The notes beneath the pieces are model-generated. The model did no database searches, was not told the DNA's origin, and saw only the letters and a program-made list of their open reading frames with translations. 64,000 bases of DNA from Microbacterium wangchenii (lineage in GTDB: Bacteria; Actinomycetota; Actinomycetes; Actinomycetales; Microbacteriaceae). The position numbers were made by a program, and so were the translations under genes. Positions 32,907 through 52,656 of this stretch are shown here, one piece after another (position 1 is the first letter of the stretch; each line of letters starts with the position of its first letter). The stretch is taken from the NCBI RefSeq assembly GCF_004564355.1, contig NZ_CP038266.1, positions 62,001 through 126,000 on the forward strand, written 5' to 3'.

Positions 32907-32927
32907 GATGTTGCCCTGGGTAACATC
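32907..32927. promoter_or_regulatory. Candidate purine-catabolism operator GATGTT-N9-AACATC
   Basis: GATGTTGCC and GGTAACATC form a palindrome with 8 of 9 paired positions around CTG. It lies between the divergent uraD and allantoinase promoters, about 20 bases upstream of the TACGGT box of allantoinase. The same GATGTT-N9-AACAT geometry, and a following CCGGG-AAT-CGG string in one orientation, recurs at 52636 in front of the xdh operon. Confidence 0.7.
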
Positions 32928-32957
32928 CGGGAAATGCGGAAACCGTACGGTGGCGCC

Positions 32958-34313
32958 ATGACCACCCCCTCCGCGGTCTCGGCCGCCCGCGTGTACCTCG
33001 ACGGCGCGTTCGTGCCGGCGACCGTCCGCATCGCCGGGGGCGTGATCGCGGCGGTGGATGCGTTCGACGCGGGTGCCGACATCGTGCTCCCCGATACGCA
33101 CCTTCTCCTTCCCGGCCTCGTCGACTCGCACGTGCACCTCAACGAGCCCGGTCGCACCGAATGGGAGGGGTTCGCGACCGGCACCGCGGCCGCGGCCGCC
33201 GCCGGCGTCACGACGATCCTCGACATGCCGCTCAACAGCATCCCGGTCACCACGACCCCCGGCGCCCTCGCCGCCAAGCGGGCCGCGACGGCCGGTCAGC
33301 TCGCCGTCGACGTCGGGTTCTGGGGCGGCGCCGTGCCCGAGAACCTCGGGACGCTCGCGGCACTGGATGCGGCGGGCGTGGTCGGCTTCAAGTGCTTCCT
33401 GTCGCCGTCGGGCATCGACGAGTTCGGTCATCTCGACGCCGACCAGCTGGAGGCCGCCCTCACCGAGATCGCCGAGCTCGGCAGCATCCTCATCGTGCAC
33501 GCGGAACACCCCGCGCACCTGAGCGCCGACGGTCCGCTCGGCACCGACTACACCGCGTTCGAGGCGTCGCGCCCGGCCGCCGGCGAACGTGCGGCCATCC
33601 GCACCGTCATCGACGCGTCGCGGCGCACGCGCGGGCGCGCCCACATCGTGCACGTGTCGGACGGGGGAGCGCTCGCCGACGTGCGCGCCGCCAAGGCCGA
33701 GGGCGTGCCGCTGACGGTCGAGACGTGCCCCCACTACCTGACGCTGACGGCGGATGAGGTGCCCGACGGCGCCGCGGAGTTCAAGTGCTGCCCGCCGATC
33801 CGCGACGCCGCGAACCGCGACCTGCTGTGGGAGGGGGTGCTGGACGGCACGGTCGACGCGATCGTGAGCGACCACTCGCCCGCCACCCCGGCGCTGAAGG
33901 CCTCGCCCGACTTCGGACTCGCGTGGGGCGGAATCTCGGGCCTGCAGACCGGCTTCTCCGCCGTGTGGACCGAGGCCCGCCGCCGCGGCATCCCGCTCGA
34001 GCGCATCCTCCCGCTGTTCACGACCGGCCCGGCCCGCATCGGCGGGCTGGGCGGGGCGGGGCGGATCCAGGCCGGCGAGTCCGCGCATCTGGTCGCGTTC
34101 GATCCGGACGCGGCGCACACGGTGCGCGCGGGGGAGCTGGAGTACCGCAACAAGATGTCGCCGTGGGACGGGCGCAGCCTGCACGGGGTCGTGGCCGAAA
34201 CGTGGGTGCACGGGATCCCGGCCTACCGCCGGGGTGAGGGTGTCGTCGCCCGCGCCGGCCGGGAGATCCTGGCTGAGCCGGCCGCGCTGGCCGGATGGGG
34301 GAGTGACCGATGA
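32958..34313 (+). CDS. allB: Allantoinase
   Basis: A 451-residue dihydroorotase-like zinc enzyme that opens allantoin to allantoate. Metal-site motifs: GLVDSHVHLNEPGRTEWEGF near residue 55, VGFKCFLSPSG with the carbamylated Lys, HAEHPAH, ETCPHYLTL, and SDHSPATP. I chose the ATG at 32958, 6 bases behind TACGGT; longer in-frame reading upstream would run through the control region. It heads the plus-strand operon, overlapping the next gene by four bases. Confidence 0.95.
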   Translation: MTTPSAVSAARVYLDGAFVPATVRIAGGVIAAVDAFDAGADIVLPDTHLLLPGLVDSHVHLNEPGRTEWEGFATGTAAAAAAGVTTILDMPLNSIPVTTTPGALAAKRAATAGQLAVDVGFWGGAVPENLGTLAALDAAGVVGFKCFLSPSGIDEFGHLDADQLEAALTEIAELGSILIVHAEHPAHLSADGPLGTDYTAFEASRPAAGERAAIRTVIDASRRTRGRAHIVHVSDGGALADVRAAKAEGVPLTVETCPHYLTLTADEVPDGAAEFKCCPPIRDAANRDLLWEGVLDGTVDAIVSDHSPATPALKASPDFGLAWGGISGLQTGFSAVWTEARRRGIPLERILPLFTTGPARIGGLGGAGRIQAGESAHLVAFDPDAAHTVRAGELEYRNKMSPWDGRSLHGVVAETWVHGIPAYRRGEGVVARAGREILAEPAALAGWGSDR

Positions 34314-35554
34314 CGGCGCCCGATCTCGCCGCGCCGGGTACCGCCGCCACCCCCGCCGTCCCGATCCTGCAGCGGGGCATCGGCATCGAGCCGGGAGCGC
34401 GCTACCTGCCGTCCACGCCGGAGACGGTCCTGTGGGGCAGGCTGCCGTGCGCGACCGATGCCGCCGTCCTCACCATCGCGACGGGTGAGACCGTGACGAT
34501 CGACACCGTGAGCCACGAGGGCATCCTCGATGACCAGGGCAAGGACCCGGTGGCGTTCTTCGCGCGGCACGGGATCGCCGCATCCGACGTCCTCGACGAT
34601 GCCGTGGCGATCGCTGCGGCCGTGCCGAGGGATGCGGCGGCCGACGGCCCGCACGTGGTGACCGGGCCGATCCGCATCGACGGCGCGCGCCCGGGCGACC
34701 TGCTGAAGATCACCGTCGAGCAGCTGGTGCCCCGCGTGCCGTACGGCGTCATCTCCAACCGGCACGGCAAGGGCGCGCTCGTGGGGGAGCTGCCGCGCAC
34801 GCCCGGCACCGTCAGCGTCTTCGCCGCCGTCGAGGAGCGCGACGGGCGGCTGTTCGGCACGCTCCCGGTCACCGACGGCGGCGAGCGGATCGTCGCCTTC
34901 CCGCTCGCGCCGTTCCTCGGCACGATGGGCGTCGCCGTGGCCGGCGGCGAACGGCCGCACTCCGTGCCGCCGGGCGAGCACGGCGGCAACATCGACATCA
35001 ACCTGCTCGTGGAAGGCGCCGTGCTGTACCTGCCGGTCCAGGTCGAGGGCGCCCTCGCGTACGTGGGCGATCCGCACTTCGCGCAGGGCGACGGCGAGGT
35101 CGCGCTCACGGCGCTGGAGGCGTCGCTGCGCGCGACGCTGCGCTTCGACGTCGTGCCGCGCCCGGAGGCGCTCGCCGAGTTCGGCGAGATCACCGGACCC
35201 CTCATCCGCACCGACGCGTATCTCGTGCCGACGGGGATGGACATCGACCTCGACGAGGCCATGCGCCGCTGCGTCCGCGCGGCCCTGTCGCTTCTCCAGG
35301 CCCGATGGGGGCTGGACGAGCACCTCGCCTACGCCTACCTGAGCGCCGCCACCGACTTCGACATCTCGCAGGTCGTCGACATCATCAGCGGCGTGCACGC
35401 CCGCATCCGCGTCGCCGACTTCGCCGCTGTCGCGCGTCCGGCCGCTCTCCCCGAATCAGGAGAATCGCCCGGATCAGGAGCATCCGGCCGAAATCGGCCT
35501 GATCTCGGCAGATCTCCTGAATCCAGCGGCGCGACCGGGACGGAGACGCGATGA
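34310..35554 (+). CDS. Acetamidase/formamidase-family protein in the ureide operon
   Basis: A 414-residue FmdA/AmdA-type amide hydrolase that probably releases ammonia from a small amide. Blocks typical of the family are TIDTVSHEGILDDQGKDPVAFF, VTGPIRIDGARPGDLLKITVEQL, GVISNRHGKGAL, PLAPFLGTMGVA, PPGEHGGNIDINLLVEGAVLYLPVQVEGAL and GDPHFAQGDGEVALTALE. It lies, by four-base overlaps, between allantoinase and the oxalurate-type amidase. The substrate is inferred from context: oxamate or a similar C2 amide. The last 35 or so residues (SGESPGSGASGRNRPD...) are encoded by an inserted palindromic element and are not part of the family core. Confidence 0.85.
   Translation: MTAPDLAAPGTAATPAVPILQRGIGIEPGARYLPSTPETVLWGRLPCATDAAVLTIATGETVTIDTVSHEGILDDQGKDPVAFFARHGIAASDVLDDAVAIAAAVPRDAAADGPHVVTGPIRIDGARPGDLLKITVEQLVPRVPYGVISNRHGKGALVGELPRTPGTVSVFAAVEERDGRLFGTLPVTDGGERIVAFPLAPFLGTMGVAVAGGERPHSVPPGEHGGNIDINLLVEGAVLYLPVQVEGALAYVGDPHFAQGDGEVALTALEASLRATLRFDVVPRPEALAEFGEITGPLIRTDAYLVPTGMDIDLDEAMRRCVRAALSLLQARWGLDEHLAYAYLSAATDFDISQVVDIISGVHARIRVADFAAVARPAALPESGESPGSGASGRNRPDLGRSPESSGATGTETR
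35453..35524. repeat. GAATCAGGAGA palindromic element inside a coding region, copy 4
   Basis: GAATCAGGAGA at the left end pairs with TCTCCTGAATC at the right with one mismatch; inside are GATCAGG/CCTGATC arms and the palindrome GGCCGAAATCGGCC. It lies wholly in the last codons of the acetamidase-like gene and adds a Ser/Gly/Pro-rich tail without a stop, ending just before the start of the next gene. Confidence 0.8.
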
Positions 35555-37203
35555 CAGGTGCGGAGATGACGGATGCGGCGGGGAACGGTGCGGCGATGAC
35601 GGATGCGGCAGAGCCGGGGAGCGGGGCGGATGCGGCCATTCCCGACGACCTGCGGGCCGCCTTCGAGGCGTACGAGCGTGCGGTGGTCGAGAACGACCTT
35701 GACGTGCTCGACGCGTCCTTCGCGCCCGGCCCCGACGTGCTGCGCGGTGACGGGGCGGGTCTGCTCGTCGGGCACGACGCCATCCGCGCGTTCCGGTCGC
35801 GGCGCGGGGGCGTCGCGCGGCGCACGATCGACAGCATCCAGTACCGGCCCCTGGGCGAGGACACCGCGCTGCTGGTGTCGGTCTCGCGGTACGCCGGCGG
35901 CGGGAGCGGCCTGCAGACTCAGGTGTGGCAGCGCATCGACGGGCGGTGGCTCATCACCGCCGCCCACGTGACCCCGCGCGCGCAGGCGTTCGACCGATCG
36001 GTGTGGCGGAGCGTGGGCGACCCGTTCTTCCAAGGCGCGTGGGAGGGGCCGCTGGCCGGCCTCACGGTGGCCGTGAAAGACCTGTTCGCCGTCAAGGGAT
36101 TCCGCATCGGCGCGGGCAATCCGACCTACCTGGAAGAGGCACGGCCGGAGACCACGACGGCGCCGGCCGTATCCGACCTGCTGCGCGGCGGAGCATCCCT
36201 GCGCGGCATCGCGCGCACCGACGAGTTCGCGTACTCGATCGCCGGCGATAATCCGCACTACGGCACTCCGCCCAACGGGGCCGTCCCCGGTGCGCTGCCG
36301 GGCGGGTCCTCGAACGGCCCCGCCTCGGCGGTGGCCACCGGGCAGTCCGAGATCGGGCTGGCCACCGACACGGCCGGATCGATCCGGGTGCCGGCGTCGT
36401 ACCAGGGCCTGTGGGGCCTGCGCACGACGCACGGACTCGTCCCGCGTCAGGGCCTCCTGCCCCTCGCGCAGACCTTCGACACCGTCGGCTGGCTCACGCG
36501 CGACGGTGAGACGCTGCAGCGCGTCGTGGACTGGTGCCTGAGCTACGACGGCTCGGAGTCGACCGAGAGCGTCTTCGGCGCCCCGGGTGACGATCTGCCA
36601 TGGCGCTTCGTCGTGCCCGCCGACCTGCGCGCGCAGGCGGAACCCGCCACGCGCAGCGCGTTCGACGCCCTCGTCGCGGCGCTGGGGGAGACGGCGGATG
36701 CGCCGGAGGTGACGCCCGCGGACGCCGGCGACCTCGGCGCCATCCTCGACGCCTTCCGCACCGTGCAGGGCGCGGAGGCATGGCGCAACCACGGCGAGTG
36801 GCTCCGCGCGCACCCGGGTGCCCTCGGCCCCGCGGTGGCCGAACGCTTCCGCGTCGCCGCCGCCGTCGACCCCGCGGCCGAAGCCGCGGCGCGCGAGGCC
36901 GTCACCGCCCTGCGCGGGCGGCTGACCGATCTCGTCCGCGGCGCCGTGCTGCTGTTCCCTACCGCCCCCGGACCCGCCCCGCTGCGCACAGCGGATGCGG
37001 CGGCCGTCGACGCGGCCCGTGCGGCGACCCTGCGGATGACGGCACCCGCCGCCGTCGCGGGCCTGCCGGCGATCTCCGTGCCGCTGCTGACGGTGCCCTC
37101 CCCGGTCGGTGAGGCGCCCGTCGGGGTCTCGCTCGTGTCGGCGCCGGGCACCGACATCGCGCTCGTGCGCCTGGCCCGCCGCCTCGCCCGAGCCCTCTCC
37201 TGA
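35551..37203 (+). CDS. AtzH/HpxZ-like domain fused to an amidase (HpxY-like), predicted oxalurate amidase
   Basis: A 550-residue fusion. Residues about 29-145 match the AtzH/HpxZ fold (FEAYERAVVENDLDVLDASF, GLLVGHDAIRAFRSRRG, QTQVWQRIDGRWLITAAHVT). The rest is an amidase-signature enzyme with Lys176 in VAVKDLF, the Ser pair at 253-254 in GGSSNG and Ser277 in DTAGSIR as the Ser-cisSer-Lys triad. In Klebsiella the separate proteins HpxZ and HpxY serve oxalurate breakdown (oxalurate to oxamate, CO2 and NH3), so the same role is inferred. No AtzG/HpxX-like small partner is seen. The N-terminal 28 residues are a low-complexity Ala/Gly stretch with several in-frame ATGs, so the exact start is uncertain. 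Confidence 0.83.
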   Translation: MTGAEMTDAAGNGAAMTDAAEPGSGADAAIPDDLRAAFEAYERAVVENDLDVLDASFAPGPDVLRGDGAGLLVGHDAIRAFRSRRGGVARRTIDSIQYRPLGEDTALLVSVSRYAGGGSGLQTQVWQRIDGRWLITAAHVTPRAQAFDRSVWRSVGDPFFQGAWEGPLAGLTVAVKDLFAVKGFRIGAGNPTYLEEARPETTTAPAVSDLLRGGASLRGIARTDEFAYSIAGDNPHYGTPPNGAVPGALPGGSSNGPASAVATGQSEIGLATDTAGSIRVPASYQGLWGLRTTHGLVPRQGLLPLAQTFDTVGWLTRDGETLQRVVDWCLSYDGSESTESVFGAPGDDLPWRFVVPADLRAQAEPATRSAFDALVAALGETADAPEVTPADAGDLGAILDAFRTVQGAEAWRNHGEWLRAHPGALGPAVAERFRVAAAVDPAAEAAAREAVTALRGRLTDLVRGAVLLFPTAPGPAPLRTADAAAVDAARAATLRMTAPAAVAGLPAISVPLLTVPSPVGEAPVGVSLVSAPGTDIALVRLARRLARALS

Positions 37204-37301
37204 CCCCGCCGCCCGCCCCGACCGGCCGACATCACTCCCGCCTCCCCGCCACCTCCCGACCCCCCATATCCCCCCCGAAACCCGACCATGACGGAGAACC
37301 T

Positions 37302-38552
37302 GTGACCGCCCCATCCGTGCCCGGCCCCATCGACCCTCCTGCACGCCTGCTCATGGGCCCCGGGCCCATCTCGGCCTACCCGAGCGTGCTGCGGGCGATG
37401 TCGGCGCCGCTCGTGGGGCAGTACGACCCGTTCATGACGGCGACGATGGCCGAGACGCAGGACCTGTACCGCCGCGTGTGGGCCACCGAGAACGACGCGA
37501 CCCTCCTCATCGACGGCACCTCCCGGGCCGGGATCGAGGCGGCGCTGGTCTCCCTCATCCGCCCCGGCGACCGCGTGCTCGTGCCCATCTTCGGGAGGTT
37601 CGGCCACCTGCTCGCCGAGATCGCCGAACGCGCGCTCGCCGAGGTGCACACCATCGAGGTGCCGTGGGGCCGGGTGTTCCCGGTGTCGGCGATCCGCGAG
37701 GCCGTCGCGCGCGTGCGTCCGCACGTGCTCGCCCTCGTGCAGGGTGACACGTCCACGACGATGAACCAACCCCTGGAGGAGATCGGCGAGATCTGCCGTG
37801 CGCACGGCGTGCTGTTCTACACCGATGCCACCGCATCCCTCGGCGGCAACGAGTTCGAGGCCGACGCGTGGGGCGTGGATGCCGCCACCGCCGGTCTGCA
37901 GAAATGCCTGGGCGGTCCGTCCGGCTCCGCACCGATCACCCTGTCGGAGCGGGCGGTGGAGGTGATCCGGTCGCGGGCACGCGTGGAGGCCGGCATCCGG
38001 GAGGAGGGCGACCCCGACGCGGGGGACTTCGTCCGCTCGAACTACTTCGACCTCGGGATGATCCTGGACTACTGGGGTCCGCGCCGGCTGAACCACCACA
38101 CCGAAGCGACGTCGATGCTCTACGCCGCCCGCGAGTGCGCGCGCGTGCTGCTGACCGAAGGGCGCGCCGCCGTCATCGCGCGGCACCGGCTGCACGGCGA
38201 GGCGATGCTCGCGGGCGTTCGCGGACTCGGCCTCGGGGTCTTCGGCGACCTCGCGCACAAGATGCACAACGTCGTGGCCGTGGAGATTCCCGAGGGCGTG
38301 CCGGGTGAGGCGGTGCGCTCGGCGCTGCTGGCGGAGTTCGGCATCGAGATCGGCACGTCCTTCGGCCCGCTGCACGGGCGGGTGTGGCGCATCGGGACGA
38401 TGGGCTACAACGCCCGCACGGATGCGGTGCTCCAGACCCTCGCCGCGCTGGAATCCGTGCTGCGACGGTTCGGCGCATCCGTCCCCGCCGGCGGCGGCGT
38501 GGAGGCGGCCGAAGGCGTGTACGCCTCGACCGACGCGCCGGGCGGGGACTGA
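37302..38552 (+). CDS. pucG: (S)-ureidoglycine-glyoxylate aminotransferase (class V)
   Basis: A 416-residue PLP enzyme of the alanine-glyoxylate aminotransferase group. It begins LLMGPGPISAYPSVLRAMSAPLVGQYDP, has LFYTDATASLGGNEFEADAWGVDAATAGLQKCLGGPSGSAP with the PLP-binding Lys, and the RLNHHTEATSMLYAARE segment typical of the group. By context it transfers the amino group of ureidoglycine to glyoxylate, giving oxalurate and glycine, which links allantoate amidohydrolase to the amidase. The GTG start has GGAG about 6 bases upstream. Serine- or alanine-glyoxylate activity is the alternative. Confidence 0.88.
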   Translation: MTAPSVPGPIDPPARLLMGPGPISAYPSVLRAMSAPLVGQYDPFMTATMAETQDLYRRVWATENDATLLIDGTSRAGIEAALVSLIRPGDRVLVPIFGRFGHLLAEIAERALAEVHTIEVPWGRVFPVSAIREAVARVRPHVLALVQGDTSTTMNQPLEEIGEICRAHGVLFYTDATASLGGNEFEADAWGVDAATAGLQKCLGGPSGSAPITLSERAVEVIRSRARVEAGIREEGDPDAGDFVRSNYFDLGMILDYWGPRRLNHHTEATSMLYAARECARVLLTEGRAAVIARHRLHGEAMLAGVRGLGLGVFGDLAHKMHNVVAVEIPEGVPGEAVRSALLAEFGIEIGTSFGPLHGRVWRIGTMGYNARTDAVLQTLAALESVLRRFGASVPAGGGVEAAEGVYASTDAPGGD

Positions 38553-38555
38553 GCC

Positions 38556-39935
38556 GTGCGGACGCGCCTGGAGACCTCGCCCGACCGCATCGCGGCGGCG
38601 GCCCGCCGGGTCATGGCGCGGTGCGACGAGCTCGCCCGTGTGACGGCCACCCCTGGGCGCATCGAGCGGGTGTACCTCTCGCCCGAGCACGCGCGGGTCA
38701 ACCGGCTGGTCGCCGAGTGGATGCGGGAGATCGGGATGACCTCGTGGCAGGACGCCGCGGGCAACCAGGTCGGGCGCCTGGATCCCGATGCCGCCGGATC
38801 GCTCAGTGGCCTGGCCTCCAGCCGGTCGCGCAGCCTGCCCCAGCGGCCGGGACCCGCGGCGGACGCCGGCCCGCGCGACGCGCCGGCCCTCCTCCTCGCC
38901 TCGCACCTGGACACCGTGCCCGACGCCGGGCGGTTCGACGGCATCGTGGGCGTGCTGATGGCCCTCGAGGTCGCCCGCCTGCTGCGCAGCATCCGCGATG
39001 ACGGCACCGTCTACGCGTCCTTCCCGTTCGCCCTGGAGGTGATCGCGTTCTCCGACGAGGAGGGCACGCGATTCGGCAAGGCGCTGCTGGGCTCCTCGGC
39101 CGTCGCGGGCGCGTGGGATGACTCGTGGTGGGAGCTGACCGACGGCGACGGCGTGAGCCTCCGCCACGCGTTCCGGGAGTTCGGGCTCGACCCCGGGCGC
39201 ATCGGGGAGGCCGCCCGGCGACCCGACGAGCTCGTCGGCTACCTCGAGGCGCACATCGAGCAGGGTCCGGAGCTCGACCGTCGCGGCGAGGCGCTCGCCG
39301 TGGTGTCGTCGATCGCGAGCGCCCGGAGGTTCCAGCTCGTGGTGGAGGGCGAGGCCCGTCACGCCGGCGGCACCCCCTACGACATGCGGCGGGATGCGCT
39401 CCTGGGTGCGAGCGAGGCGGCGCTCGCCGTCGAGCGGATCTGCCGCGGCGAGCACCACATCATCGGCACGGTCGGGCAGCTCGAGGCCTTCCCCGGCGCC
39501 GTCAACATCGTTCCCGGCGAGGCGCACTTCTCCCTGGACCTGCGGGGGGAGTTCGACGACACGCGTGACCGCGTGTGGCACGGGATCGCGCGAGAGCTCG
39601 ACGTCATCATGGGCCGCCGCGGCCTGCGCTGGCATGCGCGCGAGGTGCACTCGGCGCCGGCGGTGTTCTGCGCGCCGCTGCTGCAGGACGTCGTCCGCGC
39701 CGGCATCGGCGCCACCCTCGCGCCCGGCGCCGACGGCCCCGCGCAGATCTTCAGCCGTGCCGGCCACGACGCGATGGCCATCGGCGGCATCACCGACGTC
39801 GGGATGCTGTTCCTGCGCAACCCCGACGGAATCAGCCACCACCCGGACGAGGCGGTGTCGGCGGCCGACGTGGGTGCCGGCATCCGCGCCCTGGCCGAAT
39901 CGGTGCTGCACCTGGCCGCCGAGCCCCTCGCCTGA
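38556..39935 (+). CDS. allC: Allantoate amidohydrolase (M20 family)
   Basis: A 459-residue dimetal hydrolase that converts allantoate to ureidoglycine, CO2 and ammonia. Visible motifs: ASHLDTVPDAGRFDGIVGVLMALEV, SDEEGTRFGKALLGSSAVAG, AHIEQGPELD, the dimerisation-domain GEARHAGGTPYDMRRDAL, and the C-terminal AGHDAMAIGGITDVGMLFLRNPDGISHHPDE that is specific to this group. A short insert of about 30 residues (SRSRSLPQRPGPAADAGPRDA) precedes the first metal motif. It lies three bases after pucG. Confidence 0.93.
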   Translation: MRTRLETSPDRIAAAARRVMARCDELARVTATPGRIERVYLSPEHARVNRLVAEWMREIGMTSWQDAAGNQVGRLDPDAAGSLSGLASSRSRSLPQRPGPAADAGPRDAPALLLASHLDTVPDAGRFDGIVGVLMALEVARLLRSIRDDGTVYASFPFALEVIAFSDEEGTRFGKALLGSSAVAGAWDDSWWELTDGDGVSLRHAFREFGLDPGRIGEAARRPDELVGYLEAHIEQGPELDRRGEALAVVSSIASARRFQLVVEGEARHAGGTPYDMRRDALLGASEAALAVERICRGEHHIIGTVGQLEAFPGAVNIVPGEAHFSLDLRGEFDDTRDRVWHGIARELDVIMGRRGLRWHAREVHSAPAVFCAPLLQDVVRAGIGATLAPGADGPAQIFSRAGHDAMAIGGITDVGMLFLRNPDGISHHPDEAVSAADVGAGIRALAESVLHLAAEPLA

Positions 39936-39968: not shown

Positions 39969-40022
39969 CGTAACCACGGCGAAACACACCGCCGTGTCCG
40001 CGTAACCCCCGTCTCGTAGCGT
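39969..40022 (+). promoter_or_regulatory. Promoter region with inverted repeat before the deaminase gene
   Basis: CACGGCG (39975-39981) and CGCCGTG (39990-39996) form an inverted repeat flanked by CGTAACC on both sides as a direct repeat. A TAGCGT box follows at 40017-40022, about 50 bases before the ATG, leaving a short leader with the ribosome site AAGGA. This indicates that the deaminase gene has its own promoter apart from the ureide operon. Confidence 0.5.
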
Positions 40023-40072: not shown

Positions 40073-41440
40073 ATGTCTCTCCTGGTCACCGGTGCCCGCC
40101 TGATCACCGTTCCCGCCGGCACCGACGACCCCGGATACCTCGACCGCGGCTGGATGCTCATCGAAGACGGCCGCATCGCCGCCCTCGGTGGGGGTGGACC
40201 CACCGTCACCGCCGACGAGGTGCTCGACGTCGGCGGGGCCTTCGTCGCCCCCGGATTCGTGTCGAGCCACTCGCACCTGTTCACCAGCGGCCTGCGGGGC
40301 CTGGGGGTCAGCGAGACGCTGTACGGCTGGTGCGACTCGATGCTCGGCATGACGGCGGGATTCGCTCCGGAGGATGCGTACTGGTCGACGCTGCACGGGG
40401 CGCTGGACTTCCTCTCGAACGGCGTGACCACCGCGTACAACTTCACCGACCCGCTGCAGGCGTGGGAGCCCATGATCGACGGGCGCCGCACCGGCACGGC
40501 GGAGCTGCGCCCGCTGGAGTACCACACGCGTCAGGCCGACGGCTGCCGCGACGCCGGCATCCGCTTCGTCGACGCGATCGGGATGGACGCCACCGCCGGG
40601 TCGGATGAAGAGATCTTCGACCGCTTCGCCGCATCCGTCGCCCACACCCGCGCGATGGACCCCGCCCTCGCCCTGGGCGCTTCGATCATGGGCCAGGTGC
40701 AGTGGTCGCCGCGGGTGGATGCGGCCGAGGTCGAGGTGGAGGCGATGCGGCGGTTCGGCGTCACGAACCAGGCGCATTTCCTCGAGTCGCCGGAGGCCGT
40801 GCCGCTGCAGCAGTCGAAGTTCGCGATGTACCGCGACGCGGGCGCCCTCGGCCCGGCGATGATGTTCGGGCACTTCATCCAGACCACGCCCGAGATCATC
40901 GCCGAGGCCGCCGCCGCCGGCTCGTCGATGTCGTGGCAGCCCGCCTCCAACGGGCGCCTGGCCTCGGGGGTCGCACTCGTGCCGGAGATGATCTCGGCCG
41001 GCATGAACGTCGGCATGGGACTGGACGATCAGGCCTGCACCGACGTGTCGGACCCGTGGCAGAACATGCGCATGGGCATCGCGATGCAGCGTGCCCGCAC
41101 GAAGGATCCGCGCGCGATGATGCCCGAGCGGGTGCTCCGACTGCACACCCTGGGCTCGGCGGAGATCCTCGGCGTCGCCGACCGCGTCGGCAGCCTCGAG
41201 GTCGGCAAGTACGCCGACTTCGTCGTCGTCGACCCTCGCCGGCCCGACGTGGGTCCGCTGTGGCACCCCGTCCGCAATTACGTGCTGTCGATGACGCCCC
41301 GCAACCTCCGGCACGTGTACGTCGGGGGCGTGCTCGTGGATGACGGCGGCGTCTCGACGAACCCGCTCGCACCCGAAGCATCCGCCCGTCTGCACGCCGA
41401 CCTGCCCGCCCTCGCCGCCCGCACCTCCCACCCCCGCTGA
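40073..41440 (+). CDS. Amidohydrolase-superfamily deaminase (AtzB/SsnA/8-oxoguanine deaminase-like)
   Basis: A 455-residue metal-dependent hydrolase. The metal-site motifs are FVSSHSHLFTSGLRGLG near residue 62, NQAHFLESPEAV, MMFGHFIQTTPEII and GMGLDDQACTDVSDPWQNM with the catalytic Asp; the end LEVGKYADFVVVD is typical of the superfamily. Cytosine, guanine, 8-oxoguanine and hydroxyatrazine deaminases share this arrangement. Position between the ureide operon and the base importer points to a purine-base deaminase, most simply guanine to xanthine, but the substrate is not proven by sequence. Confidence 0.75.
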   Translation: MSLLVTGARLITVPAGTDDPGYLDRGWMLIEDGRIAALGGGGPTVTADEVLDVGGAFVAPGFVSSHSHLFTSGLRGLGVSETLYGWCDSMLGMTAGFAPEDAYWSTLHGALDFLSNGVTTAYNFTDPLQAWEPMIDGRRTGTAELRPLEYHTRQADGCRDAGIRFVDAIGMDATAGSDEEIFDRFAASVAHTRAMDPALALGASIMGQVQWSPRVDAAEVEVEAMRRFGVTNQAHFLESPEAVPLQQSKFAMYRDAGALGPAMMFGHFIQTTPEIIAEAAAAGSSMSWQPASNGRLASGVALVPEMISAGMNVGMGLDDQACTDVSDPWQNMRMGIAMQRARTKDPRAMMPERVLRLHTLGSAEILGVADRVGSLEVGKYADFVVVDPRRPDVGPLWHPVRNYVLSMTPRNLRHVYVGGVLVDDGGVSTNPLAPEASARLHADLPALAARTSHPR

Positions 41441-41865: not shown

Positions 41866-41915
41866 TGGACCGGGATGCGGCGGCGGCACGTGTAACGGCG
41901 CCGAAACACCGGGCC

Positions 41916-43137: not shown

Positions 43138-43160
43138 GATCCCGTTCAACGGAGCATCAC

Positions 43161-43985
43161 GTGACCGACACGGCCACCCTCGCCGGTGCCCAGGGGACCA
43201 CCCTGGGCACCGGCCTCCAGATCACCGGCCTCAACAAGGTCTTCAGCGTCGGACGCAAGAGCGTCGTCGCCCTGCAGAACGCCGATCTCCACACCGAGCA
43301 GGGCACGTTCCTGTCGCTGCTGGGACCGTCGGGATGCGGCAAGTCGACGATCCTCCGCATCCTCGCGGGTCTGGAAGACCCGACCAGCGGGACGACGCGC
43401 GTCGACGGCAAGAGCCCCAAGCAGCTGCGCAAGGCGAACGAGCTCGGCATCGCGTTCCAGGATTCCGCGCTGCTGCCCTGGCGCAGCGTGCAGTCCAACA
43501 TCCAGCTCCCCTTCGAAGTGGCCGGCAAACCCGTCGACAAGGCGTACGTGAGTGAGATGATCCAGCTCGTCGGTCTGAAGGGCTTCGAGAAGGCCAAGCC
43601 GGCGCAGCTGTCCGGCGGGATGCGGCAGCGCGTGTCCATCGCGCGCTCGCTCATCATGAAGCCGTCGGTGCTGCTGTTCGATGAGCCGTTCGGCGCGCTC
43701 GACGACATGACGCGGCAGAAGTTGAACCTGGAGCTGCTGCGGATCTGGACGGAGAAGCCGGCGACGACGCTGCTGGTGACGCACGGCATCTCGGAGGCGA
43801 TCTTCCTCTCCGACCAAGTCGCGGTGATGAGCGCGCGTCCCGGTCGAATCAAAGAGGTCATGACGATCGACCTGCCCCGCCCCCGCACTCCGGAGATGAT
43901 GCGCACGCCCGAGTTCCACGAGTACGTCGACCATGCCTCCGAGCTGCTCTTCGGCGCGGGAGGCGCCGCCGCCGATGACCACTGA
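43161..43985 (+). CDS. ABC importer ATP-binding protein (SsuB/ThiZ-like)
   Basis: A 274-residue ATPase with Walker [11 protein letters not shown]-loop [12 protein letters not shown], signature [14 protein letters not shown], Walker [18 protein letters not shown] and His in [16 protein letters not shown]. The LPWRSVQSN stretch is typical of the nitrate/taurine/thiamine-precursor group. GGAG lies 8 bases before the GTG. It overlaps the first permease gene by 11 bases. Confidence 0.94.
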
Positions 43986-44811
43986 CGCGGCGAAGGCCCG
44001 CGCCATCCAGTGGGAGGACATCCACCTTCCGGCGTGGCTCACGGGCCTCATCGGCGGCGTCGGCGTCGTCGCGCTGTGGTGGATCCTCGCCGCCACGGTG
44101 TTCTCCAACGTCGGCCCCGGCGGGGCGCAGGCGATCCCCACGCCACCCCAAGTCGTGGTGGAGTTCTTCGCCACCGGCTGGGAGTTCTACGCGCGCAACT
44201 TCGCCGTCACCCTCACCGAGGCCGGTATCGGCTACGCGTGGGGCAACGGGCTGGCCCTTCTACTGGCCGCGCTCGTGCTGATCGTGCCGCGCCTGGAGGG
44301 CGTCGTCATGCAGGTCGCGATCCTCACCTACTGCGTGCCGATCGTGGCGATCGGCCTGCTCATCGTGGTGATCGTGCCCGTCCCCGCGGCCGGCGACCCC
44401 TCTCCCACCGCTGTCATCCTCGCCGCGCTCAGCTGCTTCTTCACGACCGTCGTCGGAGCGCTCCTGGGTCTGAAGGCCGCCGACAGGGCGAGCCTGGACG
44501 TCATCACCGTCTACGGCGGATCGCGTCTCACACAGCTGCGGAAGGTGCGGCTCATCGCCTCGCTCCCCAGCATCCTCAACGCCCTCCAGATCGCCGTGCC
44601 GGCCGCCTTCCTCGGCGCCGTCCTGGGGGAGTTCTTCGGCAAGATCACGGTGGGCGTGGGCCCGGCGATGATCTCCGCCCAGCAGGCGCTCAACGCCGCC
44701 CGCGTGTGGGATGTGGCGCTCGTGTCCGGGGCGGTCGCGCTCGCCGGATACGCGCTGCTCGGTCTCGTGGCGCGCGCCGTCGCGCCCTGGTCGAAGGGAT
44801 CCGCACGATGA
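43975..44811 (+). CDS. ABC importer permease, first of two
   Basis: A 278-residue membrane subunit of the BinPDT type with about six helices (e.g. [57 protein letters not shown]). The coupling EAA-like loop [46 protein letters not shown] is present. The chosen ATG lies inside the last codons of the ATPase gene. NMT1-type importers usually have one permease forming a homodimer; here a second, different gene follows. Confidence 0.9.
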
Positions 44812-45692
44812 CCGACGTCCTCGCCCCGCCCACACCGGTGGTCCCCGCTGCTGCCGAGCAGGTCACGCGCCTGGATGCGGACATCCGCCGTGAATCCCGC
44901 AGGGCGACGATGCGCGCCCTGGGTCGCAGCATCCTCACCTTCGTCCTCACCCTCGTCGCCGTGACGGTCATCTGGGTCGGGGCGCTGTGGGTGTTCCAGA
45001 TCTCGCCGTACGTCGGCAAGGGGCCGCTGGAGGTGTGGAACTTCCTCGTCACCATGCCCAACGCCGCGGCCAACCGCGCCCAGTTGTTCGGTCAGCTGGG
45101 GGAGACGCTCGGCCACGCCGCCGTCGGCTTCGGTGCGGGTCTCGCCGTCGCGCTCATCGTCGCGATCGTGTTCCAGCTCAGCAAGGGCATCGAGCACGCG
45201 CTCATGCCCCTCGCAATGCTGCTGCGCTCGGTTCCGCTGGTGGCGATGGCCCCCGTGATCATCCTCATCTTCGGCCGCGACTTCGCCTCGGTGGCCGTGA
45301 TCGGCGGCATCGTCGTGCTCTTCCCCGCCCTGGTCACGATCGCGTTCGGGCTGAAGTCGGCCTCGCCGCAGATGAACGACCTCATCTCGGTGTACGGCGG
45401 CAGCTCGTGGACGCGCCTGCGGAAGGTCGCGCTGCCCAGCTCCCTGCCGGAGTTCTTCGCCGCCGTGCGCATCTCCGTCCCCGGCGCGCTCACCGGTGCG
45501 CTGCTGGCCGAGTGGCTGGCCGTGGGCGGCGGCATCGGCGGTGCGGTGGGCGGCTACATCGCCGCCGCGCAGTTCTCCGCCATGTGGACGGCCGTCGTGC
45601 TCGTGACCGGCACCGCGCTCGTGCTGTACAACCTGGTGCAGATCGTAGAGTCGGTCGTGCTGGCCCGCATGGGGATGGCCGACCGTTCCTGA
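44808..45692 (+). CDS. ABC importer permease, second of two
   Basis: A 294-residue membrane subunit with a longer cytoplasmic N-terminus, about six helices and the same coupling loop (ISVYGGSSWTRLRKVALPSSLPEFFAAVRISVPGALTGALLAEWLAVGGGIGG). It starts in the stop codon of the first permease (ATGA). The two permeases are clearly related but only moderately similar, so they probably form a heterodimer. The adenine deaminase gene follows after 45 bases, suggesting the same operon. Confidence 0.9.
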   Translation: MTDVLAPPTPVVPAAAEQVTRLDADIRRESRRATMRALGRSILTFVLTLVAVTVIWVGALWVFQISPYVGKGPLEVWNFLVTMPNAAANRAQLFGQLGETLGHAAVGFGAGLAVALIVAIVFQLSKGIEHALMPLAMLLRSVPLVAMAPVIILIFGRDFASVAVIGGIVVLFPALVTIAFGLKSASPQMNDLISVYGGSSWTRLRKVALPSSLPEFFAAVRISVPGALTGALLAEWLAVGGGIGGAVGGYIAAAQFSAMWTAVVLVTGTALVLYNLVQIVESVVLARMGMADRS

Positions 45693-45737
45693 GCACCGTA
45701 TGACCCCTCACCACCCGTTCGACCCGAAGGAACCTGA

Positions 45738-46805
45738 ATGACCACCCCCGTCGATTTCGACCTCACCGCGTTCGCCCACGGCCTGCCCAAGGCCGAGCTC
45801 CACCTGCACCTGGAGGGGACGCTGGAGCCCGAGCTGAAGTTCGCCCTCGCTGCCCGCAACGGCATCGAGCTGCCGGAGAAGACCGTGGCGGAGGTGCGCG
45901 CGACCTACGACTTCACCGACCTCACGAGCTTCCTCGCGGTGTACTACCCGGCGATGCGGGTGCTGCAGACGGCCGAGGACTTCCACGACCTGGCCTGGGC
46001 GTACCTGCTGAAGGCGAAGGAGCAGGGGGTCGTGCACGCGGAGATGTTCTTCGATCCGCAGGCGCACACCAGCCGCGGCGTGCCGTTCGAGAACGTCATC
46101 ACCGGCTACCGTCGTGCCGCCGTCCGCGCGCAGGACGAACTCGGCATCAGCGCCGAGCTCATCCTGTGCTTCCTGCGCGACTTCTCCGCCGAGTACGCCA
46201 TGGCGACCCTCATGGAGGCGCTGCCGTACAAGGCGTGGATCCTCGGGGTCGGTCTGGATTCGGATGAGCGCGACAATCCGCCGGCGAAGTTCGCCGCCGT
46301 CTTCGCCCGTGCCAAGGCGGAGGGGTTCTTCCTGACGATGCACTGCGACATCGACCAGGTCGGCTCCATCGAGAACATCCGCGCCGTGCTGGAGGAGATC
46401 GGCGTCGACCGGATCGACCACGGCACCAACATCGTGGAGGACCCGGCGCTGGTCGCCCTCGCGAAGGAACGCGGACTCGGCTTCACGACCTGCCCCGTGT
46501 CGAACTCGTTCGTGACCGAGCAGATGAAGGCGGACGAGATCGTCGGCCTCCTGCGCGAGGGCGTGCGGGTCATGGTCAACTCCGACGACCCGGCCTACTT
46601 CGGTGCGTACGTGGGCGACAACTACGTCGCGCTCGCCCAGCAGGCGGGCCTGACCCCGACCGAGCTGGTCCAGCTCGCGGTCAACTCCTTCGAGGCGGCG
46701 TGGCTGACCCCGGCCCGCCGCGCGGCGTACGTCGCGGCCATCGAGGAGTACGCGACGGCTCAGGGTGTACCGCTCCCGGCGCAGGGAGTGCCGCTCCCGG
46801 CGTAG
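45738..46805 (+). CDS. Adenine deaminase (adenosine-deaminase superfamily)
   Basis: A 355-residue zinc hydrolase. Key residues: PKAELHLHLEGTLEPEL (metal), FFDPQAHTSRGVPFENVI, MHCDIDQVGS, DRIDHGTNIVEDP, CPVSNSFVT and VNSDDPAYFG. The FFDPQAHTSRG block and CPVSN are characteristic of the adenine deaminase branch rather than adenosine deaminase, so the likely reaction is adenine to hypoxanthine, feeding the molybdenum hydroxylase downstream. The last residues AQGVPLP occur twice in tandem, a small duplication in the DNA. GAAGGAA lies about 6 bases before the ATG. Confidence 0.88.
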   Translation: MTTPVDFDLTAFAHGLPKAELHLHLEGTLEPELKFALAARNGIELPEKTVAEVRATYDFTDLTSFLAVYYPAMRVLQTAEDFHDLAWAYLLKAKEQGVVHAEMFFDPQAHTSRGVPFENVITGYRRAAVRAQDELGISAELILCFLRDFSAEYAMATLMEALPYKAWILGVGLDSDERDNPPAKFAAVFARAKAEGFFLTMHCDIDQVGSIENIRAVLEEIGVDRIDHGTNIVEDPALVALAKERGLGFTTCPVSNSFVTEQMKADEIVGLLREGVRVMVNSDDPAYFGAYVGDNYVALAQQAGLTPTELVQLAVNSFEAAWLTPARRAAYVAAIEEYATAQGVPLPAQGVPLPA

Positions 46806-48942: not shown

Positions 48943-48968
48943 GGATGCCCCTTCATTCGAGTTTGCTC

Positions 48969-51767
48969 TCAACCTATCGGGCCGTCGGCAGCCGTCATGG
49001 CCACGATGGCGTCGGCGCGTTCTCGCAGCGGCGCCGCCAGGCGCCACACGCGGTCGCGGGAGAAGGGCTGGTGATGACCGCGGATGCCGAGAGCCCGGGC
49101 AATCGCGTTGCCGATCGCGGGCGCCACCGGGTTGTAGGGGGACTCGCTCATCGACTTCGCGCCGAACGGGCCGACCGTGTCGGAGGTCTCGGCGAAGTAG
49201 ACCTCGGTGTCGGGGATGTCGGCGAACTGCGGCACGCGGTACTGCCGGAAGACCGGATTGAGCACGCGTCCGTCCTCGAGGTGGACCTCTTCGTACAGCG
49301 CGCTGCCCAGGCCCTGCGCGACCCCGCCCTCGACCTGCCCGCGCACCTGCGCGGGGTTCATGAGGAAGCCCGCGTCGGCGGAGTGGACGGACTGGAGCAC
49401 CCGGACCGTCCCGGTGTCCACGTCGACCGCGACGCGTGCGGCGTGCACGTTGAACGCCAGCGAGCGCACGTTCCCGAACTCCGCCCCCGTCGAGATGAGC
49501 CCCTCGGCAGTGCGCTCCTCGGATGCTGCGGCTCCGACGACGTCGGCGAACCCGATGAGGCGTTCCCCGACCCGCACCCCCTCCGCGGTCAGCTCCGCGG
49601 GCGTATGCGCGGGGGCGCCGGCGAGTGACGCGGCGATCCGCTGCATCCGCTCCCGCAGCGCGAGACACGCCGCGTGCAGCGCCTTACCGGCGACCGTGAT
49701 CCCCGCCGACCCGAACGCGCCGGTGTCGTGGCGCACCGCGTCGGTGTCGGCGGTGCGCAGCTCGATACGGTCGAAGCCGGCGGACAGGTCGGATGCGGCG
49801 ATCTGACGCAGCACGGTGGTGGTGCCGTTGCCGAACTCGGCCGTCCCGGCGCGCAGCAGGAAGGTGCCGTCGGGGCGGAGGGTCGCGGAGGTGTGGGCGA
49901 TGTGGCCGCGCGGGGCCATGGTGGCGATCATCCCGAGCGCCATACCCTCCCCGACCCGCCAATTCGGCCCCGTCGGGGCCTCGACGCCGTTGCCCCGGGC
50001 CAGCGCCGCCTGGGCGAGGTCGAGGCACTGGTCCAGCCCGTAGCTGCCCCACACGAGGTCCTCCTCGAACGCGTCGTCGTCGGGATGCAGCGGATCCCCG
50101 GCGCGCACGACGTTGCGCCGGCGCAGCTCGAACGGGTCGATCCCGAGCTCTTGGGCCAGGAGGTCCATCGCCGACTCGACACCGAGCATGACCTGCCCGA
50201 GGCCGTAGCCGCGGAAGGCGCCGGAGGGCGGGTTGTTCGTGTAGACGGCTTCGGCGTCGATGCGGCGCACCGGCACCCGGTACACCGTCGTGGACTCCGC
50301 GACGCCGTGGAACAGAACCCCGATGGCGTGGTTGCCGTAGGCGCCGGTGTCGCTGAGCACCTCCACCCGCATCGCGGTCAGGCGTCCGTCCTGCGTCGCC
50401 CCGAGTGACACCGAGACGCGCATCGGATGCCGGAAGGAGGTGCGCTGGAACTCCTCGGTCCGGGAGAGCTCGTACGCGACCGGACGGCCGGTGCGCAGCA
50501 CCGCGAGGGCGACGAGATCTTCGGCGAAGATCTCCTGCTTGCCGCCGAATCCGCCTCCCACGCGCGCGGTGTGCACACGGACGCGGTCGGGGTCGAGGTC
50601 GAGCAGGCGCGCGAGCTCGTCGCGCGTGAGGAACGGAACCTGCGTGCTGGCGCGGATCACGAGCCGTCCGTCGTCGTCGAGCCAGCCGACCGCGCCATGC
50701 GTCTCCAGCTGCGCATGCGACACGCGGCTCGTCTGCCACGTGCCGCTGACCGTCACGGCGCTTGCCGCGAGAGCGACCGTAGCATCCCCGCCGTGCTCCT
50801 CGTGCATCGAGGCGACGACGTTGCGGGTTGCCTCGTGCACGCGATCGTCGGGGGTGCGGTCGGGGTGCAGCAGCGGTGCGCCCGGCCGGCGCGCCTCCTC
50901 GGGGTCGAAGACGGCGGGAAGAAGCTCGTACTCGACGCGGATCGCGCGGCACGCGGCTTCGGAGGCCGCCGCCGTCTCTGCCACCACGGCAGCGACCCGC
51001 TGCCCGCGGAAGCGGACGACGTCGTCGAGCACGCGGGTGTCGTCGGGATCGTCGGTGCGGTGCTGGTGACGACCGGTCGAGAAGCGCGTCGCCGGAGCAT
51101 CCTCGTGCGTGAAGATCGCGACCACGCCGGGGATGCGCGCGGCTGCCGTGGTGTCGATCGACACGATCCGCGCGTGGGCGTGCGGCGATCCGAGCACGCG
51201 GAGGGTGAGCGCGCCGGCGACCGGCTCGTCGAAGGTGAACGGCTCGAGACCCTGCACGATCCGGGCCGCCGCCGGGGGCGCGACGGAGGCTCCAACCCCC
51301 TCTCCGGCGGCCGCGCCGGAGGTCTCGCGCACGGGGCCGAGGACGGATGCGGTGATCGCCTCGCGGATCGGCCGGTACCCGGTGCAGCGGCACAGGTTCC
51401 CCCGCATCGTCCGGTCGAGCTCGGGCAGGTCGTCGGCGCACAGCGTCGAGGCGGTCACCGACATCCCGGGCGTGCAGAAGCCGCACTGGAATCCGAACCC
51501 GCTCGCGAGGGCCTCCTGCACCGGATGCAGCGCATCGCCGGGCGCGAGGCCCGCCGCCGTCGTCACGGCCTGTCCCGCCACGCGCTGGGCGGGCACGATG
51601 CACGAGTGCACCGGGGCGCCGTCCAGCAGCACCGAACAGGCGCCGCAGTCTCCGGCGTCGCATCCCTTCTTCACCTCCGTGTGCCCGCTCTCGCGAAGGA
51701 GGGTGCGCAGGCACTGCCCTGCGGCGGGATCCGCCTCGACGGGCTCCCCGTTGACCTCGAACCTCAC
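48969..51767 (-). CDS. Molybdenum hydroxylase: 2Fe-2S domain fused to Moco domain (XdhD-like xanthine/hypoxanthine dehydrogenase)
   Basis: A 932-residue fusion. Residues 1-75 form a plant-type 2Fe-2S domain (Cys36, 41, 44, 56) and 76-150 the second cluster domain (Cys95, 98, 126, 128). From about 175 on there is the molybdopterin domain: RVGGGFGGKQE, PPSGAFRGYGLGQVM, FGSAGITVAGKAL, and GAKSMSES, the usual region of the active-site Glu. There is no FAD domain; this is supplied by the upstream gene. The arrangement equals E. coli YgfM-XdhD. Purine hydroxylation to urate fits the cluster. The GTG overlaps the FAD-subunit stop (GTGA). Confidence 0.9.
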   Translation of the reverse strand: MRFEVNGEPVEADPAAGQCLRTLLRESGHTEVKKGCDAGDCGACSVLLDGAPVHSCIVPAQRVAGQAVTTAAGLAPGDALHPVQEALASGFGFQCGFCTPGMSVTASTLCADDLPELDRTMRGNLCRCTGYRPIREAITASVLGPVRETSGAAAGEGVGASVAPPAAARIVQGLEPFTFDEPVAGALTLRVLGSPHAHARIVSIDTTAAARIPGVVAIFTHEDAPATRFSTGRHQHRTDDPDDTRVLDDVVRFRGQRVAAVVAETAAASEAACRAIRVEYELLPAVFDPEEARRPGAPLLHPDRTPDDRVHEATRNVVASMHEEHGGDATVALAASAVTVSGTWQTSRVSHAQLETHGAVGWLDDDGRLVIRASTQVPFLTRDELARLLDLDPDRVRVHTARVGGGFGGKQEIFAEDLVALAVLRTGRPVAYELSRTEEFQRTSFRHPMRVSVSLGATQDGRLTAMRVEVLSDTGAYGNHAIGVLFHGVAESTTVYRVPVRRIDAEAVYTNNPPSGAFRGYGLGQVMLGVESAMDLLAQELGIDPFELRRRNVVRAGDPLHPDDDAFEEDLVWGSYGLDQCLDLAQAALARGNGVEAPTGPNWRVGEGMALGMIATMAPRGHIAHTSATLRPDGTFLLRAGTAEFGNGTTTVLRQIAASDLSAGFDRIELRTADTDAVRHDTGAFGSAGITVAGKALHAACLALRERMQRIAASLAGAPAHTPAELTAEGVRVGERLIGFADVVGAAASEERTAEGLISTGAEFGNVRSLAFNVHAARVAVDVDTGTVRVLQSVHSADAGFLMNPAQVRGQVEGGVAQGLGSALYEEVHLEDGRVLNPVFRQYRVPQFADIPDTEVYFAETSDTVGPFGAKSMSESPYNPVAPAIGNAIARALGIRGHHQPFSRDRVWRLAAPLRERADAIVAMTAADGPIG

Positions 51768-52582
51768 GCCGCCTCCGCCAGTTCGCCGCGGATCCGCTCC
51801 GCCAGGGTCGTGCTCACTCCGCGCCGCCAGTCGGCCGACCCGAGCGGATCGCTGTAGTAGCCGGATGCCGCTGCGACCGCGGCGCGCAGGTGCACGGCAT
51901 CCGGGAGTCCCGGGAAGCGCAGCACCGTGGGCCGCTCGGTCGCGGCGGTGATGCCGAAGACCGTCGCGCCGCTGGGGTCCAGCCGGCCGGTGACGACCGC
52001 GCCGGAGCGGCCGAACTCGGCGAGGGCGATCTTCCGCAGGACGAAGCGCGATGCCAGCGCGGCCGCGGGCAGCTCGATCGCGCGGATAACCTCCCCGGGG
52101 CCGAGGCTGTTCGTGCCGTTGCCGGTGACGAGGTCGGCGACGGGCGTGCGGCGCTCGCCGCCGTCGGGAGTCCAGATCTCGGCGACGCCGTCCAGCCCGG
52201 CGGCGAGGGCGACCATCCCCGCGGCCGCGAAGGAGCGCGCGACGTTCCCGCCGATCGTCGCGGTGTTCCAGATCTTGAAGCTCGCCAGAAGTGCGTTCGC
52301 CGCATCCGGGATCGTGGCGGCGGCCGGCCAGTCCTCGGGTGCTGCGGTGCGCGCCCAGGCCACCAGGCGCGCGATCGTGCACGTGGCGGCGATGCGGAGC
52401 CCGGTGGCGGAGATCTCGAGGTCGGGCCAGCCGAGGGTCGTGAGGTCGACGAAGCCGGTGACATCGGGCTGCGGTTCGCTCAGAAGCCACGTGCCGCCGG
52501 CGAGGAAGACCTCGCCCGCACCCAGGTCGAGGTCGGCGCGCGAGCCGGCGCGGCGGAAGCTCGTGACGGTGTGGATGTCCAC
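51764..52582 (-). CDS. FAD-binding subunit of the molybdenum hydroxylase (YgfM-like)
   Basis: A 272-residue FAD protein of the CoxM/XdhB class. The FAD-loop motifs LAGGTWLL near residue 30 and ASFKIWNTATIGGNVARSFAAAGMVALAAGLD near 100 are evident, followed by the C-terminal CODH-type domain. I prefer the GTG at 52582 (GGAGGAAGCC just upstream) to an ATG 39 bases before, which lacks a ribosome site. It passes electrons from the iron-sulphur/molybdenum partner to NAD+ or another acceptor. First gene of its operon. Confidence 0.88.
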   Translation of the reverse strand: MDIHTVTSFRRAGSRADLDLGAGEVFLAGGTWLLSEPQPDVTGFVDLTTLGWPDLEISATGLRIAATCTIARLVAWARTAAPEDWPAAATIPDAANALLASFKIWNTATIGGNVARSFAAAGMVALAAGLDGVAEIWTPDGGERRTPVADLVTGNGTNSLGPGEVIRAIELPAAALASRFVLRKIALAEFGRSGAVVTGRLDPSGATVFGITAATERPTVLRFPGLPDAVHLRAAVAAASGYYSDPLGSADWRRGVSTTLAERIRGELAEAA

Positions 52583-52635
52583 GGCTTCCTCCGCTCGGTC
52601 GGGCTGCGAGCAGTCAAACACCGCCGGATTACCCG

Positions 52636-52656
52636 GATGTTTCCGTCATCAACATT
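52636..52656. promoter_or_regulatory. Candidate purine-catabolism operator ahead of the xdh operon
   Basis: GATGTT-TCCGTCATC-AACATT matches the GATGTT-N9-AACATC palindrome at 32907 in both half-sites and in spacing. On the minus strand it reads into AACATCCGGGTAATCCGG, which agrees in 16 of 18 bases with the sequence next to the first site. It lies 54-74 bases upstream of the FAD-subunit start. Confidence 0.68.

Follow-up and report, generated by a model that had tools for sequence, protein, structure and literature searches.

What controls the purine-degradation genes of Microbacterium wangchenii? We analyzed a window of 64,000 nucleotides (nt) of its genome (contig NZ_CP038266.1, positions 62,001 to 126,000; coordinates below are those of the window), in which genes for purine breakdown form several predicted operons. 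An initial annotation had noted the palindrome GATGTT-N9-AACATY, two half-sites with a 9-base spacer, between uraD and allB and ahead of the xdh operon, had suggested that it marks a purine-catabolism regulon, and had named an XRE-cupin protein encoded at 46819 as the nearest candidate regulator. Our comparisons make it likely that the palindrome, written RATGTT-N9-AACATY, is the operator of this XRE-cupin protein (46819-47427), that the protein represses purine salvage and degradation operons until released by a purine-type ligand, and that these promoters are read jointly with the nitrogen regulator GlnR.

Both exact palindromes were found where they had been reported. Predicted operator 1 (32907..32927, plus strand; GATGTT-N9-AACATC, GATGTTGCCCTGGGTAACATC) lies in the divergent promoter of uraD (start 32828, minus strand) and allB (start 32958, plus strand). 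Predicted operator 3 (52636..52656, minus strand), which reads AATGTT-N9-AACATC toward xdhB, is the exact site of the xdh operon and stands 53 bases ahead of the xdhB start codon (GTG at 52582). A scan of the whole genome (3.83 Mb, 72% GC) revealed exact matches to GATGTT-N9-AACATY at these two places only. Within the window they give three strand-matches, and no match arose in 100 dinucleotide shuffles (mean 0.00, maximum 0). One mismatch added two places in the genome (L003 and L004), and no purine gene was seen among the open reading frames displayed around them. With three mismatches the window held 21 matches against 15.7 expected, which is the chance level. Matches of that grade were therefore dropped as evidence, and loose candidates such as the one at 41916 needed support from conservation.

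The genus was searched in 149 genomes drawn from a larger group. Exact motifs were present in 34 of them, and the reversed control in 0/149. For the allB promoter, 61 of the 86 allB matches were compared; the remaining 25 are 49-56% identical and none of them comes from a regulator-bearing genome. The regulator was scored as present when a protein reached at least 160 bits to the XRE-cupin protein of the window. With at most two mismatches, the site was found at 31/31 allB loci of genomes with a close XRE-cupin relative vs. 1/30 of those without, including one locus (G016) that is cut by a contig end. At one mismatch, 29 regulator-positive loci had the site and 2 did not, and 1 regulator-negative locus had it and 29 did not. 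Genus-wide, the form at allB was refined to RATGTW-N9-WACATY. Independent pairs were drawn from an allB tree whose rows were ended by the first stop beyond residue 300, earlier stops being written as X. The motif followed the regulator in all pairs (4/4) for 158 of the 200 pairings and in three (3/4) for the remaining 42, and never went the opposite way; when genome G132, taken up below, was left out, all 200 pairings gave 4/4.

The other two positions behaved similarly. For the xdh operon, 50 of the 56 xdhB matches were tabulated. Outside the table are G043, G103, G055, G064, G089, and G115, of which G043 and G103 were scanned, with no one-mismatch site in the loci covered. The xdh site (at most two mismatches) was present at 27/30 regulator-positive loci, G123 included, and at 0/20 regulator-negative loci (at most one mismatch over the whole upstream stretch, at most two within 200 bases). 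In the clade of G058 it lies approximately 690 bases ahead of xdhB and not immediately before the gene. The importer site, predicted operator 2 (AGTGTTGGTGAAATCTACATC, 41916..41936, plus strand), was found in 11/11 motif-bearing clusters that cover the region, among them G132, which lacks the importer gene itself, and in 0/3 clusters without the regulator. The motif is thus conserved at the orthologous sites of relatives.

A mismatch-free whole-genome search with RATGTW-N9-WACATY covered 48 genomes, 25 of them with the regulator. These 25 genomes hold 54 sites, of which 48 are at uraD, allB or xdh, 3 are at a relocated hpxO and 3 are strays; sites were assigned to genes partly from direct gene maps and otherwise by position and identical site sequence. 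Across all 48, the reversed control had a single match, in G085. Among the regulator-positive genomes, G109 and G139 have no mismatch-free site and the sole one of G047 is a stray. The 22 regulator-negative genomes besides G132 hold 5 sites, 3 of them ahead of an XRE-cupin gene (G138, G043, and G103). Where hpxO lies elsewhere in the genome (G035, G136, and G054), a mismatch-free palindrome still stands ahead of it; the relocated gene was identified by an NCBIfam model in G136, and those of G035 and G054 are closely similar over the residues displayed. With 51 of 54 sites at uraD, allB, xdh or hpxO, unrelated promoters do not share the motif to the same extent. It tracks the purine pathway, and these counts support the regulon proposed initially. 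Chance, or drift in a shared promoter, would fit the three-mismatch count of the window. Against it stand the empty shuffles, the contrast between 34 genomes with the exact motif and none with its reverse, the palindrome that is kept at the relocated hpxO, and the scarcity of sites at unrelated promoters, and we give this explanation virtually no credence.

The candidate regulator (P0002; 46819..47427, plus strand) is encoded at the end of the importer/adenosine deaminase operon. Its Pfam domains all scored above cut-off: HTH_3 (PF01381, residues 23-77), HTH_31 (PF13560, 18-76), and Cupin_2 (PF07883, 132-191). To the family search, 299 genomes drawn from a larger group were subjected, and own promoters were surveyed at 29 loci of the 44 matching genomes (the window genome, G000, aside). 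The 29 relatives surveyed, all in other genera, are 50-64% identical to P0002. In 23/29 a palindrome near AATGTTGAT-N3-ATCAACATT lies 144-263 bases ahead of the matched part of the gene (at most one mismatch of RATGTT-N9-AACATY), and 3 more carry one at two mismatches. In the last three (G220, G282, and G340) the gene ends an importer operon, like P0002, and the palindrome is found at the operon promoter with one mismatch. Two of these genomes, G282 and G220, which belong to another genus, have the palindrome at uraD/allB, importer and xdh alike, with one mismatch each. Because the palindrome stands upstream of the relatives' own genes in other genera, the candidacy of the XRE-cupin protein is strongly supported, and 46819-47427 probably encodes the regulator that acts at the palindrome.

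A matrix built from the 23 out-of-genus sites has the palindromic consensus AATGTTGATGACATCAACATT. In the window it placed 52636 first (23.0) and 41916 second (19.9), the best of 60 Markov windows being 14.45. The importer match, which had been listed as a weaker one, is on the strength of its conservation and this rank a real site. A lone GATGTT half-site at 55994 had been noted as well; it is present at 55994-55999, but as an operator it was rejected, being a single arm outside the 14 best matrix scores of the window. More distant relatives were also compared. Upstream of four XRE-cupin paralogues that are 40-44% identical (L160, L161, L163, and L164) no palindrome was found, and upstream of others it is strong (L156, L157, and L158) or weak (L162 and L159). 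L159 is a second P0002-like XRE-cupin gene of genome G105 (C79:191395-191943), and the weak palindrome upstream of it has one mismatch of RATGTW-N9-WACATY. A tree of the regulators, from which row L190_G136 was omitted as a duplicate, came from a short search and has many open forks and long branches; no claim of gain or loss rests on it.

Next to operators 1 and 3, two 18-base strings had been reported to agree at 16 of 18 positions. This similarity is real when both are read toward the gene, but the string is not part of the palindrome. Together with the preceding GT, the shared string AACATCCGGGAAATGCGG contains GTAAC-n6-GAAAT, and the GlnR box of actinomycetes is given as gTnAc-n6-GaAAc in a review (PMC10704036). 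Judged by its letters, the flanking string is a separate element, a GlnR-type nitrogen box (GTnAC-n6-GAAAY) that overlaps the right arm of the palindrome. The pattern GTNAC-n6-GAAAY has 16 matches in the genome vs. 1 for the reversed control; boxes stand at glnA and amtB (both NCBIfam), uraD, allB, the deaminase-like gene, and the importer, and some of the 16 fall in coding sequence (e.g. L224). The genome also encodes a GlnR orthologue: the L263 protein matched structures 8hih, 8hig, 4o1i, and 4o1h (E down to 6.7e-76), of which 4o1h carries the label "Transcription regulator GlnR" and the other three are generally labelled.

At allB the box is GTAAC-ATCCGG-GAAAT (32920..32935, plus strand), overlapping the right arm of operator 1. 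At uraD it is GTCAC-GAGCCG-GAAAC (32852..32867, minus strand), 10 nt before a putative -10 element TACCGT (32836-32841). The importer box (GTAACGGCGCCGAAAC, 41892..41907, plus strand) lies upstream of operator 2 and 32 nt before the -10, and the box of the guanine-deaminase-like gene (GTAACCACGGCGAAAC, 39970..39985, plus strand) lies 31 nt before TAGCGT by hand count. At xdh we read a GlnR-like element in reversed order, GAAAC-ATCCGG-GTAAT (52628..52643, minus strand), overlapping operator 3. This assignment is weaker than that of the allB box, because the order is reversed and the pattern GTNAC-n6-GAAAY missed the element. A relaxed pattern, G[TA]NA[CT]-N6-G[AT]AA[CT], matched upstream of allB at 31/31 regulator-positive and 13/30 regulator-negative loci, G132 among the 13; the reversed control matched 0/61. 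Since 12/29 palindrome-less regulator-negative allB loci keep a box, palindrome and box separate in evolution. For the same reason, and as it reads as a GlnR box, the 18-base string was rejected as an extension of the palindrome. The conserved GTWAC...GAAAY near -35 could partly be a promoter feature instead of a GlnR site.

Palindrome and flank might also form one single GlnR site, with the XRE-cupin protein as a bystander. At allB, GTnAC-n6-GAAAY overlaps the right arm of the palindrome in 30/31 genomes, and the excess of boxes over the reversed control, with glnA and amtB included though some matches are coding, fits a single GlnR system, as does the GlnR orthologue. The boxes that persist at palindrome-less loci argue otherwise. 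Moreover, the importer box is outside the palindrome, 8-9 nt upstream, no box overlaps the palindrome at the XRE-cupin genes of other genera (flanks displayed, inspected by eye), and the flanks of the glnA and amtB boxes lack the left arm of the palindrome (by eye). We therefore regard a GlnR site alone as very unlikely.

The spacing between these elements is rigid. From the end of the palindrome to a TAnnnT at allB the gap is 18 nt in 30/31 regulator genomes, with a start-like codon 6-7 nt further on. In 30/31 promoters GAAAY lies 3 nt after the palindrome and 10 nt before the -10-like box. In the window this box is the putative -10 TACGGT (32946..32951, plus strand), 6 nt before the ATG, which suggests a leaderless-type promoter. 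With TAnnnT as the -10, the palindrome reaches from about -51 to -31, the box from -38 to -23, and they have bases in common. The relocated hpxO repeats this arrangement in 3/3 cases, with the palindrome 18 nt ahead of TAnnnT and GTGAC as the second half of the box. In 11/11 importer clusters, the palindrome (about -36 to -16) stops 3 nt short of the -10; in the window that element is the putative TACCGT (41940-41945, plus strand), 3 nt past operator 2. In the 9/11 importer clusters that match the box pattern, 32-33 nt separate the GlnR box from the -10, comparable to 32 nt at glnA and 31 nt at the deaminase-like gene. Measured from predicted -10 positions, the sites fall within core promoters. 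The sites, this spacing, their conservation, their co-occurrence with the regulator, and their presence at promoters of the family's own genes are properties of the DNA as read.

Several observations weigh against the XRE-cupin protein as repressor at this palindrome. The cut-off of 160 bits was chosen after the data had been seen, and the next best genome scored 140.8 bits. Genome G132 has the motif at allB without a detected regulator, in an assembly that is 72% complete. Presence of the regulator changes just 4 times on the allB tree, and a sign test on four pairs (p 0.125-0.25) has no way to reach significance. In several regulator-negative genomes the bases ahead of allB look coding, so that an absent operator counts for little there. 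G047, G105, and G139 (3/30 regulator-positive loci) lack the xdh site. With the out-of-genus matrix, operator 1 (32907) ranked only 4th (7.2, against a mean random best of 5.96) and was outscored by a coding match at 59151 (9.8); of the operators it deviates most from the out-of-genus consensus, in its middle nine bases. The recognition helix is SHPF in P0002 and SHSF in the four palindrome-less paralogues, but three palindrome bearers (L252, L254, and L261) also have SHSF, so the helix does not sort bearers from non-bearers. A proline-to-serine change as the explanation of which XRE-cupin proteins lack the palindrome was dropped, as these bearers share the serine. Lastly, operator 1 is centred near -41, a position from which an activator could work too.

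Some of these points would fit a different regulator, encoded elsewhere and co-inherited, that binds the palindrome while the XRE-cupin protein is merely co-distributed. Co-occurrence then amounts to four independent changes, the survey of regulators took in the cluster only, and the helix comparison does not discriminate. Many genera nevertheless have the palindrome at the XRE-cupin promoter itself, be it that of the gene or of the operon, with partly different neighbours, and it is lacking at the four distant paralogues, which makes such a regulator highly improbable. As for the direction of control, the XRE-cupin protein could bind as an activator in a class II position near -41 at allB. 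The palindrome centre, counted from the inferred -10, has this position at allB and at the relocated hpxO. The importer palindrome, however, lies at about -36 to -16, and activators rarely work from there. Furthermore, the Pseudomonas aeruginosa XRE-cupin regulators with determined regulons are described as inhibitors (PMC7901475). An activator is thus unlikely, and the XRE-cupin regulator most likely works as a repressor.

As a repressor, an XRE-cupin dimer would bind the palindrome and shut down four units: uraD-uraH-hpxO, the allB operon, the importer operon with adenosine deaminase (add) and the XRE-cupin gene, and xdh. It would do so by occlusion of the promoter, covering the -35 region at allB and the relocated hpxO and the space before the -10 at the importer. 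A purine or a breakdown product held in the cupin domain would release the repressor. The regulator would also control its own synthesis, because its gene is the last of the importer operon. Since GlnR-type boxes overlap or adjoin the palindromes, nitrogen starvation (through GlnR) and the presence of purines (through the XRE-cupin protein) may be sensed at the same promoters. GlnR would activate the importer from its upstream position. At allB the two proteins would compete, and as their sites share bases they probably exclude each other. Binding, repression, effector, and exclusion are in this scheme what we infer. As a further step we propose, tentatively, that allB and the relocated hpxO have a conserved composite operator, whose palindrome right arm coincides with the first half of the GlnR box, with exclusive binding of XRE-cupin protein or GlnR, turning purine degradation on only when purines are present and nitrogen is short; we consider this possible, though not probable.

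The genes in question encode purine breakdown according to domain and family models or, for xdhA and xdhC, their translations. On the minus strand, uraD, uraH, and hpxO (urate to allantoin; 30797..32828) form one predicted regulated operon. On the plus strand follows a second (32958..39935) with allB and genes for a formamidase-like protein, an amidase, a class V aminotransferase, and an allantoate amidohydrolase-like protein. The amidase (35551-37203) has an N-terminal AtzH/HpxZ-like domain in the same protein, and the formamidase-like gene adjoins it; the two look as if made for intermediates of the oxalurate or formyl-urea type. An amidohydrolase resembling guanine/8-oxoguanine deaminases (40073..41440, plus strand) had every NCBIfam score under cut-off. 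The third predicted operon (41917..46805, plus strand) holds the genes of an NMT1-type ABC importer and adenosine deaminase, and ends with the regulator. The longest open reading frame of the importer binding protein begins at GTG 41917, within operator 2. The true start therefore probably lies downstream, and an automatic start call at 41917 would probably be wrong. The xanthine dehydrogenase operon (48969..52582, minus strand) comprises xdhB, the FAD subunit (51764-52582; Pfam PF00941), and xdhA (to 48969; mapped in relatives). We take the names xdhA and xdhC from their translations, from which we also presume that 47506-48963, between the regulator and xdhA, encodes a flotillin-like membrane protein.

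Three observations concern neighbouring subjects. In many genera of the family (L237-L262, e.g. L253:10-3516), a Fer2/NAD-binding oxidoreductase comes after a related XRE-cupin gene, which has a cytosine-deaminase-like and an 8-oxoguanine-deaminase-like amidohydrolase at its flanks and the palindrome in the divergent promoter. Domains were checked for L253 alone; perhaps this is an uncharacterised cluster for the degradation of N-heterocycles. A different XRE-type protein, 28-34% identical to P0002, has its gene ahead of allB or in the uraD-allB interval in some genomes (L194:2047-2589, L197:16799-17353, and L201:1883-2458) and perhaps acts on the pathway as a further regulator. At L223 (G000:C1:391379-391394), a GlnR-type box (GTTACTTCCAAGAAAC) stands immediately upstream of a lipoprotein-like gene, which from its start we take to be, perhaps, the solute-binding protein of a nitrogen-regulated importer.

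Regulators of the AllR, PucR, and HucR types also control urate or allantoin degradation genes. By eye, the motif of AllR (IclR family), given as KTTGGAAWAWTWTTCCAAC (PMC8222616), is unlike the palindrome in half-sites and spacing. Among the closest likenesses are the P. aeruginosa XRE-cupin proteins, described as local repressors with palindromic core-promoter sites and sites beside their own genes (PMC7901475). PsdR, PauR, ErfA, and others share with P0002 the HTH and Cupin_2 domains, a palindromic site, core-promoter and own-gene positions, and a small metabolic regulon. The present case differs in phylum, in pathway (purine degradation), and in its approximately four promoters, which bear GlnR-type boxes as well. 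The three consensus sequences determined in P. aeruginosa differ from each other, and the likeness drawn here is one of description and not of letters. The GlnR regulon of actinomycetes, as set out in PMC10704036, is matched in box consensus, in the GlnR orthologue, and in boxes at glnA and amtB. It differs in that the box lies 10 nt before the -10-like element at allB, uraD, and the relocated hpxO instead of 31-33 nt, and, at allB and hpxO, by its overlap with a second operator. The main text of that review contains neither "allantoin" nor "uric". In the main text of a survey of XRE palindromes (PMC12565409), purines are not mentioned and neither ATGTT nor AACAT occurs. A literature search, mostly without subscription journals, found no publication on an XRE-cupin regulator of purine catabolism or on such an actinobacterial motif.

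In the proposed system, an XRE-cupin protein would repress the purine-degradation regulon from an operator of its own, and the composite overlap with the GlnR box is the most unusual part. For purine degradation in one high-GC actinobacterial genus, the analysis offers a regulator together with its operator and regulon, with precise sites. In many genera of the family, the palindrome also marks the apparently uncharacterised cytosine-deaminase-like/8-oxoguanine-deaminase-like cluster. The overlap with GlnR, if true, would mean that purine and nitrogen signals are integrated at the level of the promoter, where one stretch of DNA could sense both the supply of purines and the hunger for nitrogen.

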